NCBI GenBank assembly: GCA_037042185.1
Contig: JAXQJY010000024.1
Span: 310,001-374,000 of the forward strand
Reading direction: 5' to 3'
DNA length: 64,000 bases
DNA from: Sordariomycetes sp. S80-01Y
Taxonomy: Eukaryota > Ascomycota > Sordariomycetes
Shown: positions 14-34,490 of the stretch, piece by piece
How positions within the stretch are numbered: the stretch's first letter is position 1
How the letters are laid out: every line of letters begins with the position of its first letter
Position numbers and translations under genes: made by a program
The notes under the pieces: generated by a model
Seen by the model: only the letters and a program-made list of their open reading frames with translations
What the model was told of the DNA's origin: nothing
Databases searched by the model: none

Positions 14-2454
14 ATGGCGGTTAATCGCATTAAAGGTGCCTTTCAGGTGCCTCGAAAGGGCGAAACATTCGAGCTGCGAGCGGGTCTGGTCTCGCAGTAT
101 GCCTACGAGCGCAAAGAATCAATCCAGAAGACCATCATGGCGATGACGCTGGGCAAGGACGTCTCGGCCCTGTTTCCAGATGTGTTGAAGAACATTGCGA
201 CGGGCGATTTAGACCAGAAGAAGCTGGTGTATTTATATCTCATGTATGCCTCCTGTGCCTGGGCGGTGCTGGGAGCACCGCAAGCTCGGGAGGAGCTCAT
301 ACTGACTGTACCAGGAACTATGCAAAGTCGCATCCCGACCTCTGCATTCTTGCCGTCAACACCTTTGTCCAGGACTCAGAAGACCCGAACCCACTGATAC
401 GAGCGCTCGCGATACGGACGATGGGATGCATTAGGGTGGATAAGATGGTGGATTACATGGAAGAGCCCCTAAGGAAGACGTTACGAGACGAATCGCCGTA
501 CGTCCGAAAGACTGCCGCCATCTGTGTCGCGAAACTCTTCGACCTGAGTCCAGCCATGTGCATCGAGAATGGCTTCTTGGAATCCCTGCAAGAGCTCATA
601 GCGGACCCCAACCCGATGGTCGTTGCCAACTCTGTCCAAGCTCTGTCCGAAATCAGCGAAACGGCGCCCGAAACGAGAGCGTTGATTATCACTCCCGCAA
701 CATTGAAGAAGCTCTTAATGGCACTGAATGAGTGTACGGAGTGGGGCCGTGTCACAATCCTGTCGACAATTGCCGACTACACAGCGGCAGACGTGAAAGA
801 GGCCGAGCACATCTGCGAGCGCGTTGCTCCTCAATTCCAGCACGTCAACCCCAGTGTGGTGTTGGCTGCTGTTAAAGTCGTCTTCACACACATGAGGTCT
901 GTCAACCCTCAGGTCGTTGCGGCGTACCTGAGGAAGATGGCGCCCCCCTTAGGTAAGTTTAAAGCGTGAGTAAAAAGGTAGCACGGGTCTAACGAGTGCA
1001 GTCACGCTTGTGGCATCCCAGCCCGAGGTTCAATACGTCGCACTACGCAACATTGATCTGTTGTTGCAAGCCAAGCCAGATATTCTCAGCAAGGAGATGC
1101 GGGTGTTCTTCTGCAAGTACAACGACCCTCCGTACGTCAAGTTGCAGAAGCTCGAAATCATGGTACGGATAGCGAACGAGAAGAATTACGAACAGCTCCT
1201 CGCCGAATTGACGGAGTATGCTCTCGAAGTCGACATGGACTTTGTGCGAAGAGCGGTGAAGGCGATTGGCCAAGTTGCGATCAAGATTGAGAGCGCCAGC
1301 GCCAAGTGTGTCCAGGCTCTCGAAGAATTGCTAGCCACCAAGGTCAACTACGTAGTTCAAGAGGTCGTGGTTGTGGTAAAGGACATCTTGAGAAAGTACC
1401 CTGGCTTCGAGGGCGTCATTCCAACGCTGTGCCAGCATATCGATGAGCTTGACGAGCCAGATGCGCGAGCATCTCTGATCTGGATCGTTGGCGAATACGC
1501 CGAGAAGATCAGCAATGCTGATGAGATTCTGGAGAGCTTCGTAGAGGGCTTCATGGAGGAGTTTGCTCAGGTATATCTCCCAGAACCAACCGACAAGACA
1601 TCTGCTAACAACACTAGACCCAGCTGCAAATATTGACAGCCGTGGTCAAGCTCTTCCTCAAGAAGCCCAGTAACACTCAGGGGTTGGTGCAGAAGGTTCT
1701 GCAATCAGCCACGGCGGAGAACGACAACCCTGACATCAGAGACAGGGCATACGTTTACTGGCGTCTTCTCTCTGGCGATCTCGACGTGGCCAAGAACATT
1801 GTCCTCACTCAGAAACCCACCATTTCCACAACCATGACCAGCCTTCCCCCTACCTTGTTGGAGCAGCTCCTTTCAGAGCTGTCGACCCTGGCCTCGGTAT
1901 ATCACAAGCCTCCGGAGTCATTCGTTGGCAAGGGGCGCTTCGGTGCCGACGAGATCCAGCGCGCTGCTATCCAGGAGCAACGGCAGAATGCGGCCGAGAA
2001 CCCCATCGCCGCCTCCGTGGCCCGTGCCAATGGCCAAGCCGCCAATGGCACCTCTGGCGGCCAGCAACAGAACAACGTCGAGAACCTTCTCGACATTGAC
2101 TTCGATGGCGCCGCCCCAGCTTCGCAAGAACAGAACAGCGCTAGCAACACACCCAGCCGGACAGCCAGCCCTGCCGTCGGTACGCCTTCGGGCGGCATGG
2201 CGGACATGATGAGCATGTTCGATGCGCCTCCGCCACAGTCCAGCGGCACACCTGCTCAAGCTCCACAGCAAAGCTCAAGCAATGGTATGAACGACTTGAT
2301 GGGCGGTTTCGACGGGTTGAACTTCGGCAGCGGTAGCCAGCAATCAGGAGAACCGCTGCCGGCAGCAATGCAGCTGCAGAACGCTCAAGGGGGCGCGCAG
2401 CCGCCGGCGCAGGGACAGAAGAAGGATAGCGATGACCTCTTAGGCTTGTTTTAG
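14..2454 (+). CDS. apl2: AP-1 complex subunit beta (beta-adaptin)
   Basis: Large subunit of the clathrin adaptor AP-1, which sorts cargo at the trans-Golgi and endosomes. Exons 14-243, 315-952, 1002-1570 and 1618-2454 join to 757 aa. Introns of 71, 49 and 47 nt are GT-AG with CTGAC/CTAAC branch sites, and each junction restores the conserved trunk ([34 protein letters not shown]). The N-terminus (MAVNRI..GAF..PRKGE) and HEAT-like trunk repeats fill about residues 1-580. A clathrin-box-like LLDIDFD lies in the hinge near 635, then a Gln/Ser/Gly-rich tail ending DDLLGLF. As in other fungal AP-1 beta chains there is no large C-terminal ear. The start fits the family; only 13 bases of upstream sequence are present. 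It is convergent with the BolA gene. Confidence 0.95.
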
Positions 2455-20887: not shown

Positions 20888-21354
20888 GACGGGCGGTCGC
20901 CTCGTCACTCCCCGCGGGCGACGAGAAGAGGACTGGGGATGAGGTCAAGACTCTTATTTGAAGTCAAGGCCGATCCAGAATGACAAGATAAGTTCTTATC
21001 ATCTCAAACAAAATTTGAGAAGTTCTTTCGGCAACTGCGGGTTGAAGAGTCACCACTTTCAAGTGAGAAGAGGCTCAACCGTCACTGGTGGGGTTTAGCA
21101 GCAAGCCCGCGAGTGTCGATGTCATTGCTTGCTACCCGAGGATTTACCCCAAGCACGCAGAGTGCTGCTCCGTCGTATGCTCTGTAGCAACCGGGGACCC
21201 CAAGTCATGAATGTCTGCTGATGCAGTCGCTTCAGAGCTCAAAACAAGACAAAAATGAAGGGAAAAAATTACGTTATTTTGAGGAGCACCGCACGGCTTC
21301 CGGCGAATTGGCAGCTAAAAGGCCACCAACCCAAAACCAAAAACAAAAAAAAAA
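20888..21354. other. Intergenic between SKI3 and tRNA-Gln
   Basis: 467 bp holding the SKI3 promoter, with the paired GATA motif at 20987-21000, and A-rich DNA just 3' of the tRNA (21340-21354). On the minus strand the A-rich part reads as T-runs and can serve as the Pol III terminator. No other gene seen. Confidence 0.6.
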
Positions 21355-21439
21355 GGTCCATGCAGGATTCGAACCTGCGCTCTTCGGATGCCCACATTGG
21401 AATCAAAACCGAATGTCCTAACCACTAGACTAATGGACC
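21355..21439 (-). tRNA. tRNA-Gln(TTG) with a 14-nt intron
   Basis: The cloverleaf can be drawn by eye: acceptor GGTCCAT/ATGGACC, D-arm GTCT/GGAC, anticodon stem TTCGG/CCGAA, T-arm GCAGG/CCTGC around TTCGAAT. The anticodon TTG is at 21406-21404. A 14-nt intron (21402-21389) sits one base 3' of the anticodon, the standard place for tRNA-endonuclease introns. The mature length is 71 nt before CCA addition. A T-run on the minus strand (A-run at 21345-21354) follows the 3' end. Confidence 0.93.
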
Positions 21440-22903: not shown

Positions 22904-25169
22904 ATGTCGTTCCCTTTGAGGAAGATGTCCACGGCCGCTGGCGCGCCGATGAGGAAGATGTCTACGGCTGGACCGAACGAGTTGCTGGCGGCTCAGATTC
23001 ATAACAGACGTGCCAATGACCGAGCAATCATTGAAAATCCCCTTGGTGCGTGTGAAAGCGACCTACCACTGACAAAAGCAATTGTGCTGACTTCACATGA
23101 AAGCCTACTTCACTGACGCTGAGCTCGAACTCGATGTCCAGAACTTCACTCGGACATATCTCCCATCGGTCCCTTACGCCAAGGTCCTCCGCGCAGCGCG
23201 GGTCGCAAAGGACATTCGCCTCTACGACGAGGTCGCCCGCTCCTCGGATCCGAGCCTGGGCATGGGTCTCCCCGTAGAGTTGACGGACGAGGAAAGGGAG
23301 TGTCTGATGCGAGAGCGAGATCGTGTTTTCAGCGAAAGGGGCATGCGCAAGGTCATCCTTACGGTGTCGCTTGCTGCGCTTCTCCAAGGCTTTGTACAGT
23401 CCTCTTTCAACGGTGCTTCGTTCTACAGGAATCACTGGGGACTTGATGGGGATGATTCTGATGTCACTTGGCGATTGGGCGGTACGAACGCGGCGGCTTG
23501 GTTCGCTGCGGCCCTGCTAGGATGCCCTTTATCTCTACCGATCAATTACTACTTCGGAAGAAGAGGCGGCCTGATCGCGGCAGCGGTGTTGATTTTCGCC
23601 AGCTCAGTGGCTGCTGTATTTGCACATTCTTGGGGTGTTCTTCTGGGCATCCGAATTATCAACGGACTCGGCATGGGCATCAAAGCTGTGAGCACGCCCA
23701 TTCTGGCCTCCGAGACTGCAGTTGGCTTCTGGAGAGGAACCGCTATCCTGGCCTGGCAACTCTGGGTTGCCTTTGGCATTATGCTGGGCTTTGCTTTCAA
23801 CCTGCTCTCCACCACTGCATCGGACGACAGAACGACTTTGGGTCTCATCCAGGGTGCGCCACTCGTCCCTGCTCTGATGCTACTCACCATGGCCGTCTTC
23901 TTCTGTCCGGAATCACCACGCTACCATCTACAAAAGGGCCCGAATTATAACCCTGAGAAAGCCTTCTACATCCTCCGTCAGCTTCGCAACACTGAGCTGC
24001 AGGCCCTCCGCGACATGTACGCCGTCTACAAGTCCATTGAGCAGGAATCCATGGGTGCAATGAGCCAAGATCCTCGCGCGAACCTGTCTCCTGGTTTCTG
24101 GTGGACGATTTGGGACTTCTGTCTGGCCTTCAAGCAACTCTTCCAGCAAAGGCGTTTGTACAACGCGCTCATCTCGGCCGGTACCGTGAACCTTGCCCAG
24201 CAACTCTCCGGCGTCAACGTTTTTGCCTTCTACTCAACCGAACTTGTCGGGAGCGTGAGCGGTGGCAACTCGATGGAAAACAAGCTGCAGCCTATGGCTT
24301 ACAGCCTGGGGTTTGGCGCCATCAATTTTCTGTTTGCGCTCCCCGCCGTCCGAAGCATCGATACGCTCGGTAGAAGAAGGTGGCTGCTCATGACTTTGCC
24401 TTTCATGGCTTTGTTCATGCTTGGCGGAGCTCTGGCCTACGATATCCCGGATGCGAACATCAGAACTGGAATCGTCGCCTTGTTTCTTTACCGTAGGTAG
24501 ATAATGTTGTCCATTGGCGGCGATTTGCTAACATTTGCAGTGTTCGCAGTGGCTTACTCACCTGGCTTGGGGCCCATTCCCTTCACCCTCGCCTCCGAGA
24601 GTTTCCCCCTCTCCCATCGTGAAGCTGGAACAGCCTGGCCTATCTCCATTAATCTATTCTTCGCCGGTCTCCTCTCCATGCTTTATCCCTCCATCCGCGA
24701 CCATGAATCCGGCCTTGGCGACGGTGGCTCCCTCGGCCTCTTCGCCGGCCTCAACATCATCGCCTTCATCCTCGTGTTCTTCCTCGTCGAGGAGACCAAA
24801 GGCCGCTCTCTGGAAGACCTGGATCTTGTCTTCGCCGTCTCGAAGCGGCGCTTCATGTCCTTCCAGGTCCAAGAGTACCTGCCATGGTTCATCAGGCGGT
24901 ACATCCTGGGTAAAGATGAGCCCGCCCCTGAGCTGTATCGTGATTACATTTGGGGGCCGTGGAAAAGGGTGAGCAATGATGATAGCCCGAGGCAGGGGTA
25001 CGCACCCGCCGGCGTGGGTTTCGGGTACGGTATGGGCATGGAGACGGGCAGTTGTGAGAGAGTTGCCCCAGAAGCCCCCCCATTGAGCCCCCCGCCGCCG
25101 GCGCAGCACTGGGAGGGGCCGATTGAGATGCCTGCTACGTCACATATTGGGCCGCCTCGTTTTAGGTGA
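22904..25169 (+). CDS. MFS sugar/polyol porter
   Basis: Sugar-porter-family major facilitator. Exons 22904-23045, 23104-24492 and 24541-25169 join to 719 aa, long for the family because of extended tails. Introns are 58 and 48 nt; the junctions read NPL-AYFTDAEL and FLY-LFAVAYSPGLGPIP. Marks of the family: YYFGRRGG after helix 2, FFCPESPRYHLQKG at the end of helix 6, AQQLSGVNVFAFYS in helix 7, RSIDTLGRRRW after helix 8, and FFLVEETKGRSLEDLD after helix 12. The N-terminal RRAN-x-ENPL segment is shared with inositol-transporter-like fungal porters. The hydrophilic C-tail of about 110 residues is Pro/Gly-rich. The substrate is unknown. Confidence 0.9.
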
Positions 25170-30637: not shown

Positions 30638-31078
30638 GGTTCGGATGCTACGAAGATGTGGGTGTCGAGTTGGAACAAAGTGAACATCCAGGGGCCGGGC
30701 CCAAAATTTGAAGCGTTGGAACTATCATAACTTTCATTGGGATGGTGGGCATTTCGGATCGGTTGGCGTTGGGCTTGGACATACACGACAGACAGCGTGC
30801 CGCGCATCATTGCCTCAGCGTAAGCTTCAACAGAAATCAGGTACATACATCCGCACTTTCCAACTGGACCGACAGTGTCATAACATGAGGTTCGTAAGAA
30901 GCGAACTCTCAAAGTAGTAGCGCATGCGCAAACCACCGTCCCCCACACTCACCCCATGCCCAGATCAATAGTTGAACACAGAGGCCTACCGGGTGAGACC
31001 AAAAAAAGAAAAAAAAAACTAAGTGAAAGTTATTTCGAAACAAGGGTTATCCAGAGGTGCAAAATACAAAAAAGAAAT
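30638..31078. other. Intergenic, GH5 to tRNA-Leu
   Basis: 441 bp, ending in A-rich DNA. On the minus strand the AAAAAA at 31068-31073 is a T6 run 5 bases after the tRNA-Leu 3' end, a Pol III terminator. No gene seen. Confidence 0.6.
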
Positions 31079-31224
31079 GATGAGAGTGGGATTCGAACCC
31101 ACGAGGATTGCTCCACCAGGAATAGATATTAAGGTAACCTTAACCTGACGCCATAACCTGCGTTTGTTAGCGCGGGTTTCGTGGGGATTCGTTGGGAATT
31201 GCTTACCAACTCGGCCATCTCACC
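31079..31224 (-). tRNA. tRNA-Leu(AAG), copy A, with D-loop insertion and canonical intron
   Basis: The 5' part GGTGAGATGGCCGAGTTG (31224-31207) is followed by a 49-nt insertion (31206-31158), then the rest of the tRNA (31157-31079). With the insertion removed the D-arm reads GCCG-AGTTGGTTA-TGGC with G18G19 and A21 in place. The anticodon stem is TCAGG/CCTGG, the anticodon AAG at 31141-31139, and a 16-nt canonical intron lies at 31137-31122. The long variable arm has a GGA/TCC stem, and the T-arm is GTGGG/CCCAC around TTCGAAT. The acceptor is GGTGAGA/TCTCATC with one G-U pair. The A box (TGGCCGAGTTGG) and B box (GGTTCGAATCC) are intact. The exon bases match copy B exactly. Confidence 0.85.
31158..31206 (-). 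other. Spliceosomal-type intron in tRNA-Leu D-loop, copy A
   Basis: 49 nt: GTAAGC donor, GCTAAC branch motif about 9 nt before the CAG acceptor. Size and signals match the protein-gene introns of this window. It lies between D-loop bases TTG and GTTA, not at the anticodon-loop site used by tRNA endonuclease. Confidence 0.7.
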
Positions 31225-33506: not shown

Positions 33507-33655
33507 GGTGAGATGGCCGAGTTGGTAAGAGACCCTTCCCAACGAGTCCCCACGAAACCCGCGCTAACAAACGCAGGTTATGGCGTCAGGTTAAGGTTAC
33601 CTTAATATCTATTCCTGGTGGAGCAATCCTCGTGGGTTCGAATCCCACTCTCATC
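33507..33655 (+). tRNA. tRNA-Leu(AAG), copy B, with D-loop insertion and canonical intron
   Basis: Same gene plan as copy A, opposite strand. The 5' part is 33507-33524, the 52-nt insertion 33525-33576, and the remainder 33577-33655. The anticodon AAG is at 33593-33595, with a 16-nt canonical intron at 33597-33612 whose CCTTA can pair with the anticodon region TAAGG. All 97 bases of tRNA plus canonical intron match copy A; only the D-loop insertion differs. T-runs follow at 33661-33665 and 33670-33675, so Pol III termination is well provided for. The anticodon AAG would be read as IAG and decode CUU/CUC. Confidence 0.87.
33525..33576 (+). other. Spliceosomal-type intron in tRNA-Leu D-loop, copy B
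   Basis: 52 nt: GTAAGA donor, CTAAC branch at 33564-33568 with the likely branch A at 33567, and CAG acceptor ending at 33576. It is 3 nt longer than in copy A, with all differences in the 5' half. The GTTGG spanning the donor can pair with CCAAC inside the intron in both copies. Confidence 0.72.
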
Positions 33656-34490
33656 ATTTCTTTTTGCACTTTTTTGCCTTGCGAGCACATAGTCTCTCTG
33701 AATTCCACCATCGGTTTCCCATGGCATTTCTGAGACACCGTTGTGTCCTTCGATGTCGTGGTGTGCGATGGCTACCGGTGTGACAAACGCGGCGATGCGC
33801 AGCGAGCAGCTCTGATTGGCCGCTACCCCTGCTAGGTGGCCAGAGCCTGGGCGACGATTCGTCCAGCCGCAGTGGTTAAGCGCCAACACGAGCTCTAGAG
33901 TCTGTCGATTTAGACAGCCACTGCAGGGCGATAAGCTCCGATAAGCTCCTCAAGACGGCCGAATGCTGCAAAGGGACCCTGTCAGCTCCACCTCGAGGCA
34001 CCCCAGTACTGCCATTGTCTCTCTCCGCGCGGCGCCTTAGTCGATTAAAGCTTCTATTGAACAGCCAAGCCACTGTCGACGAAGTTCAACGTTTTGTTTG
34101 ATCACGGAGCGTTAGATAGCGGCCCTTTTGTTGGCTGAGACTCGCGACCGACGGCACTAAGGCTGAATCGACGCGGCGGTCATCGCAGCCTCGCCGGTTT
34201 CAGTCGCTGTACCAAATGCGCCGGCACCCTTGGTTATCCAGACCTCAATACGAGCACTGGCGCGGAGTCGGTTCGTTGGACTCCCGAAACCCCTTTTTCG
34301 TTTTCGCGCGTTGTTAACTTGGCAGACTCAGGGAACACATGAGCTCAAACTTTGAATCGAATACATATTCCCGACACTCCTATCTCCCGGCGAAACCCCC
34401 CACCGAAACAACGTCGCCGAACCCTCGTAGCACTGGTGCCCAACCACGAGAAGGACGGAGGACGCCTCCTCCGTCGCGGACAAGGCTGTC
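33656..34490. other. Intergenic upstream of BCK1
   Basis: 835 bp. After the tRNA terminators it holds the BCK1 promoter and 5' leader. An in-leader open frame starts at the ATG at 34339, in a different frame from BCK1, and overlaps the BCK1 start. Whether this upstream ORF is translated is not known. Confidence 0.45.
33661..33675 (+). terminator. Pol III T-run terminators of tRNA-Leu copy B
   Basis: T5 (33661-33665) and T6 (33670-33675) begin 5 bases after the tRNA end. Confidence 0.75.

Follow-up and report, generated by a model that had tools for sequence, protein, structure and literature searches.

The window, as we call the whole stretch of DNA analysed (64,000 nucleotides on contig C7 of a 30.9-Mb genome in 16 contigs), carries two tRNA-Leu(AAG) genes about 2.3 kb apart on opposite strands. 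Gene 1 (33507..33656, plus strand, with the discriminator A included) is interrupted twice. A 52-nt insert of spliceosomal type (33525..33576), flanked by TTG and GTTATGGCG, separates positions 18 and 19 of the tRNA, and ARAGORN places a separate 16-nt intron (33597..33612) at the usual 37/38 site. The insert begins with the 5' splice site GTAAGA (33525..33530), contains the branch-site motif CTAAC (33564..33568), whose A at 33567 is the predicted branch point and lies 9 nt from the end, and closes with the 3' splice site CAG (33574..33576). This anatomy, including the second intron, had been claimed in the original prediction and is right; the gene start given there also stands, but its end at 33655 has to be moved to the discriminator A at 33656. 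The insert's first G takes the place of G19 in the Leu genes and leaves box A unbroken, so that box A of gene 1 (TGGCCGAGTTGG, 33514..33525) is completed by the G at 33525 and spans the splice junction. Box B (GTTCGAATC, 33636..33644) lies in the T arm, and a T run resembling a Pol III terminator follows at 33661..33665, all on the plus strand. When the exons are joined, at a predicted junction of GCCGAGTTG to GTTATGGCG, ARAGORN reports Leu(AAG) with the 16-nt 37/38 intron, and pairing is complete in the acceptor, D, anticodon and T stems, which bears out the claim that removing the insert restores the D-stem. The unspliced gene with its flanks is called a false Arg(CCT).

Gene 2 (31078..31224, minus strand) contains a 49-nt insert of the same type (31158..31206) and a 16-nt 37/38 intron (31122..31137, a position computed from the exon lengths), both on the minus strand. 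Its tRNA exons and 37/38 intron are identical to those of gene 1, the flanks are largely unlike, and the two inserts differ mostly near their start. The search with the Leu gene returned three matches in total, the third being a gene on contig C10 (Leu3) with a diverged 53-nt insert at the identical site that keeps GTAAGA, CTAAC and TTAG. Leu3 shows 11 exon differences, all in the acceptor and T stems, and since these stems still pair completely, the changes speak for a working tRNA under selection. A query made of the joined exons returned no uninterrupted Leu(AAG) copy from the genome; it matched only pieces of the two window genes and itself missed the C10 gene. Intact Leu(AAG) genes elsewhere, which the original prediction had named as evidence against itself, thus did not turn up in these non-exhaustive searches, and 3 of 3 genes found carry the insert.

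The organism is probably a member of the Hypocreales close to Emericellopsis, as judged from a GH5 protein encoded in the window, whose best named match is from Emericellopsis cladophorae (81% identity), followed by other Hypocreales; three proteins rank above this match, with 98, 91 and 85% identity. The tRNA genes of the genome were surveyed in part, using the Rfam tRNA profile (62 and 63 matches) and patterns combining box B with a T run, which later added further ordinary tRNAs. One pattern set gave 36 and 68 listed matches, against 32 and 21, about half, in a backward control. The other sets gave 14 and 24 against 15 and 8, 3 and 2 against 3 and 4, 3 and 15 against 7 and 4, and 19 and 46 against 2 and 2. 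The loci L110, L111, L122, L123 and L125-L133 gave no tRNA and were left out of the gene count, as was L142; L140 was judged by eye only. In this way 84 distinct tRNA-like genes were read, namely 81 genes, including six interrupted non-Leu genes, and the three Leu(AAG) genes. Inserts of spliceosomal type are present in 9 of them, a count that applies to the 84 genes read, since only part of the pattern matches was read.

The interrupted set comprises three Leu(AAG), three Ile(AAT), two initiator Met (iMet) and one Gln(TTG) gene, with insert sites, numbered by hand, at 18/19 in Leu, 26/27 in Ile, 34/35 in Gln and 46/47 in iMet. The two iMet genes have identical exons, and in each the insert follows an AGG of the variable loop, with CCCGGAGG predicted to be joined to TCCTAGG. 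Each of the three Ile(AAT) genes on contig C11 would have GTTAGAGCG joined to TTGTACTAA; they lie within about 4 kb (C11:2156900-2161070), one of them on the opposite strand to the other two. In the Gln(TTG) gene on C11 the insert lies inside the anticodon, between T34 and T35, with a predicted junction of GGGTTT to TGA, and a separate 15-nt intron is present at 37/38. A tRNA-Gln(TTG) gene without such an insert is located in the window (21354..21439, minus strand) and served for comparison. In the window, Rfam at its gathering cut-off found only a Gln tRNA.

Several families were examined for uninterrupted members. Neither an uninterrupted Leu(AAG) nor an uninterrupted Ile(AAT) gene was recognised among the 84 genes read. 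The only uninterrupted Ile(AAT) call by ARAGORN, L050, is by eye an Ala(AGC) gene, because outside its intron the sequence matches L051, an Ala(AGC) gene. Ile(AAT) was absent from the Rfam tRNA list and proved interrupted; Asn, Pro(CGG), Pro(AGG), Val(CAC), Arg(TCT) and Ile(TAT), also absent from the list and suspected to be interrupted, proved ordinary. No Val(AAC), Pro(TGG), Ser(TGA) or Gly(TCC) gene was recognised among the 84, and L063, Gly(TCC) according to ARAGORN, resembles a Leu gene by eye. An uninterrupted initiator-Met-like gene (L062/L068, C6:475296-475367, minus strand) is 78% identical to the joined iMet genes and has 2 of its 5 T-stem pairs broken; this relative could still be a source of initiator tRNA. 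A set of seven canonical tRNAs, too distant as a query, gave no match in the genome, and exact-pattern scans of viral contigs and prokaryote genomes found no relatives, as expected for a fungus.

All nine tRNA inserts are 49-53 nt long, start with GTAAG, GTACG, GTATG or GTGCG (GTRNG) and end in CAG or TAG (YAG). Together with an insert in a U6 gene described below, 10 of 10 combine a GT start within the fungal donor consensus with an AG end, and each of the ten contains CTAAC or CTAAT, whose A stands 9-12 nt ahead of the end. Among 639,400 placements of a segment of 49-53 nt in the window, 4 show this whole signature, and the two window Leu inserts are among the four because both carry it. In shuffles of five of the nine inserts it appeared 0, 0, 1, 3 and 0 times per 400,000 each. 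The introns that ARAGORN places in ordinary tRNA genes show a different picture, with GT...AG borders in none of 26 and CTAAY in one; these 26 are the 32 ARAGORN entries minus six misread interrupted genes, with the introns of L006-L035 and L144 standing outside this list. With the exons joined, ARAGORN recovered the expected tRNA in 9/9 cases with fully paired stems. From the unspliced genes it misread eight, as Arg, Gly, Thr or selenocysteine tRNAs, and missed one. The selenocysteine calls concern an interrupted iMet gene (L112) and an interrupted Ile gene (L118).

We next compared the inserts with introns of protein genes. A census of the open frames of the window yielded 46 groups on one strand and 44 on the other, with most candidates resembling noise; eight well-scored candidates were translated and six of these were tested with Pfam. 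The Pfam matches cross the junction in all six, among them a 49-nt intron in an adaptin-like protein gene (GTAAGT...TCTAAC...CAG; 953..1001, plus strand) and a 48-nt intron in a sugar-transporter gene (GTAGGT...GCTAAC...CAG; 24493..24540, plus strand). Five of the six are 46-51 nt long and one measures 77 nt. All six have a GTRNGT donor, and the acceptor is YAG except in one intron with AAG. Three introns carry CTAAC as branch motif, two CTGAC and one CTGAT, in each case at a distance of 9-12 nt from the end. The tRNA inserts are therefore similar in size and signals to the protein introns of the same genome, as the original prediction had stated for the Leu insert.

A search for U6 returned six matches in the genome, two of them above the cut-off. 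In one of these two, the U6 gene L135 (C8:978300-978455, minus strand), the ACAGAGA region is split by a 51-nt insert, GTAAGT...CACTAAC...CAG; judged by eye, its removal restores the conserved core ATACAGAGAAGATTAGC. The insert carries the box B sequence GGTTCGAAC; since another GTTCGA core lies just downstream of the T run of this gene, the box B within the intron is perhaps not the sole one. The other match above the cut-off, a diverged U6-like gene without an insert (L134, C8:546034-546133, plus strand), has a TATA-like sequence upstream and a T run.

In all nine tRNA genes the insert sits downstream of box A and upstream of the exon box B, and a T run occurs within 30 nt downstream of the gene, so that the elements of a Pol III type 2 gene are present in 9/9. 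Both boxes are intact in Leu, Ile and Gln; in the Leu genes they stand far apart, with a gap of 107-113 nt. The T arm of iMet has the variant box B GATCGAAAC, and a GTTCGA box B core is present in 3 of 3 inserts of the two iMet genes and U6 and in 0 of 7 inserts of Leu, Ile and Gln. The two iMet inserts share the stretch AGTTCGAATC in full, one base away from their common branch region CGTCTAACAA. The fission yeast U6 intron likewise holds box B. The GTTCGA cores in this genome suggest that some introns also act as promoter parts, on the basis of three inserts of which two are copies. The iMet and U6 introns would then possibly be hard to lose, because the genes' own exons are without a consensus box B and the insert has GTTCGA.

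Between copies, the inserts preserve their splice signals and drift over much of their remaining length. The iMet pair differs at 0/72 exon positions versus 14/53 insert columns (p about 1e-6). The Ile pairs differ at 0/74 exon positions, with 9/51 insert columns in two pairs (p 2e-4 each) and 2/51 in the third, Ile1-Ile3 (p 0.16). For Leu1-Leu2 the exons show 0/82 substitutions and the insert 3/52 plus 3 gap columns (p 0.05), and for Leu1-Leu3 the values are 11/82 versus 19/57 plus 9 gap columns (p 0.001). Pairs within one tRNA family are not independent, and taken alone the contrast is weak for both Leu1-Leu2 and Ile1-Ile3. The 5' flanks also differ among the iMet and Ile copies despite their identical exons.

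Taken together, we regard the inserts as spliceosomal introns of the GT-AG, mRNA type in nuclear tRNA genes transcribed by Pol III, a reading to which we assign a probability of roughly 0.9 on the strength of the sequence. In a Leu pre-tRNA, recognition of GTAAGA and CTAAC of the U1/U2 type would be followed by the formation of a lariat on the adenosine of CTAAC and by exon joining at YAG, which would free the spliceosomal-type insert, and the tRNA endonuclease would take out the separate 37/38 intron. We infer Pol III transcription, the removal itself, the lariat chemistry, the order of the two splicing events and the reliance of the cell on the product from the features of the genes. Points against the reading are the weak contrast in two of the six copy pairs, the insert-free Gln(TTG) gene, the uninterrupted initiator-like gene on C6 and the wide spacing of the two promoter boxes in the Leu genes. 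The recurrence in four tRNA families and at four sites, together with U6, makes this a feature of the genome and not a single oddity. It also lends support to the mechanism put forward in the original prediction, in which a Pol III pre-tRNA is acted on by the spliceosome or by something that relies on the same signals, and this mechanism is probably correct.

The interrupted genes could instead be dead or selfish copies that remain unspliced while uninterrupted genes supply the tRNAs. In eukaryotes, a tRNA gene with an insertion in the D or T arm is mostly one among many synonymous genes and is supposed to be a pseudogene (PMC4090602), and in our partial survey Gln(TTG) does have an insert-free gene and iMet an uninterrupted, diverged relative. 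However, 3/3 Leu(AAG) and 3/3 Ile(AAT) genes found are interrupted, and since their codons are common (in eight window frames, CTY accounts for 267 of 597 Leu codons and ATY for 225 of 257 Ile codons), pseudogenes are unlikely. The exons of iMet and Ile are identical across copies while the inserts and 5' flanks differ, Leu3 keeps all pairs despite its acceptor- and T-stem changes, and T runs follow all nine genes. We consider this explanation quite improbable.

Alternatively, the inserts could be non-canonical introns that the tRNA splicing endonuclease recognises by bulge-helix-bulge motifs. Non-canonical introns occur in the D arm, the anticodon stem and the variable region of tRNA genes of some archaea, Cyanidioschyzon merolae and nucleomorphs (PMC4090602), and normal 37/38 introns are present in this genome as well. 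In a simple test for the motif (a 4-bp central helix with 3-nt bulges), however, none of the nine inserts had four central and at least two inner pairs; iMet1 had four central pairs and one inner pair, and Gln three and two. The scores were ordinary in comparison with 2000 shuffles each, the fewest shuffles, 136 of 2000, being counted for iMet1. This test covers the classical motif, next to which relaxed half-motifs are mentioned for archaea (PMC4090602). Moreover, GTRNG, CTAAY and YAG are not predicted by an endonuclease mechanism, and the GT...AG borders are absent from the 26 ordinary introns. Endonuclease cleavage of the inserts therefore appears very improbable.

A comparably slim chance is given to Pol II transcripts that are spliced like non-coding RNAs and from which the tRNA is then cut out, a route that is compatible with removal by the spliceosome. 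It would account for the splice signals without requiring the spliceosome to act on an uncapped transcript. Yet the two promoter boxes are intact in Leu, Ile and Gln, the inserts lie between them in 9/9 genes, and the T runs follow within 30 nt. Furthermore, U6 of this genome carries the same type of insert, and U6 is a Pol III RNA in other eukaryotes. Self-splicing group I or II introns were rejected, as a catalytic core of this kind needs some hundreds of nucleotides and the inserts measure only 49-53 nt.

Nuclear tRNA splicing and mRNA splicing are regarded as separate systems. In agreement with the original prediction, which knew of no established description, no spliceosomal intron in a nuclear tRNA was described in open-licence PubMed Central titles and abstract beginnings among the matches listed. 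One match to "spliceosomal splicing of tRNA" (PMC13247085) stems, in the excerpt returned, from the words "non-spliceosomal splicing of tRNAs", and another paper concerns, as far as its excerpt goes, non-canonical introns of archaea (PMC8450103). The closest known systems are the mRNA-type introns in U6 snRNA genes of fungi, first described in fission yeast (cited in PMC5832005). These are likewise spliceosomal-type introns in a Pol III RNA gene, whereas the host RNA here is a tRNA, with four families and four sites, one of them inside the anticodon. Spliceosomal introns are also found in fungal U3 snoRNA genes, where a GTRWGT-like donor, an RCTRAY branch site and a YAG acceptor are described (PMC5832005). 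The tRNA inserts resemble them in all three signals and in having a small structured host RNA, but the U3 introns have a mean length of 92 nt (PMC5832005), as compared with 49-53 nt here. According to an excerpt of the same paper, frequent interruption is known for no small structured RNAs other than U3 and U6 (PMC5832005).

The tRNA introns of archaea, C. merolae and nucleomorphs share with the inserts their location away from 37/38 and, sometimes, the company of a 37/38 intron (PMC4090602). Those of archaea and C. merolae are ascribed to bulge-helix-bulge signals and the endonuclease, and the insertions in Guillardia theta tRNA genes, 3-24 nt in length, are removed in a way that is said to be unknown in the portion of this source consulted (PMC4090602); its main text contains no instance of "spliceosom". 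Ordinary 37/38 nuclear tRNA introns exist in this genome too, even in the same Leu and Gln genes, and differ from the inserts in their fixed site and, in the 26 looked at, in their borders.

One genome seems to apply tRNA splicing and mRNA splicing to the same precursor and to hold spliceosomal signals at four sites within tRNAs, one of them in the middle of an anticodon. Further cases may lie unseen in annotated genomes, because tRNA finders misread such genes, as ARAGORN did when it took them for Arg, Gly, Thr or selenocysteine tRNAs. In fungi, a spurious tRNA-SeC call may even flag a spliceosomal-type intron in a tRNA gene. The genes described here make it testable whether the spliceosome can act on short, uncapped and highly structured Pol III transcripts at the output levels of tRNAs, how tRNA genes gain introns, and whether splicing stress directly limits translation. 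The production of these essential tRNAs probably depends on the spliceosome, as judged from the genes themselves. We think it rather likely, with less confidence than in the nature of the introns, that initiation by iMet and the decoding of CUY and AUY pass through the spliceosome in this fungus and that the iMet and U6 introns may be hard to lose as they bring box B. If true, the supply of translation would be tied to the splicing capacity of the cell.
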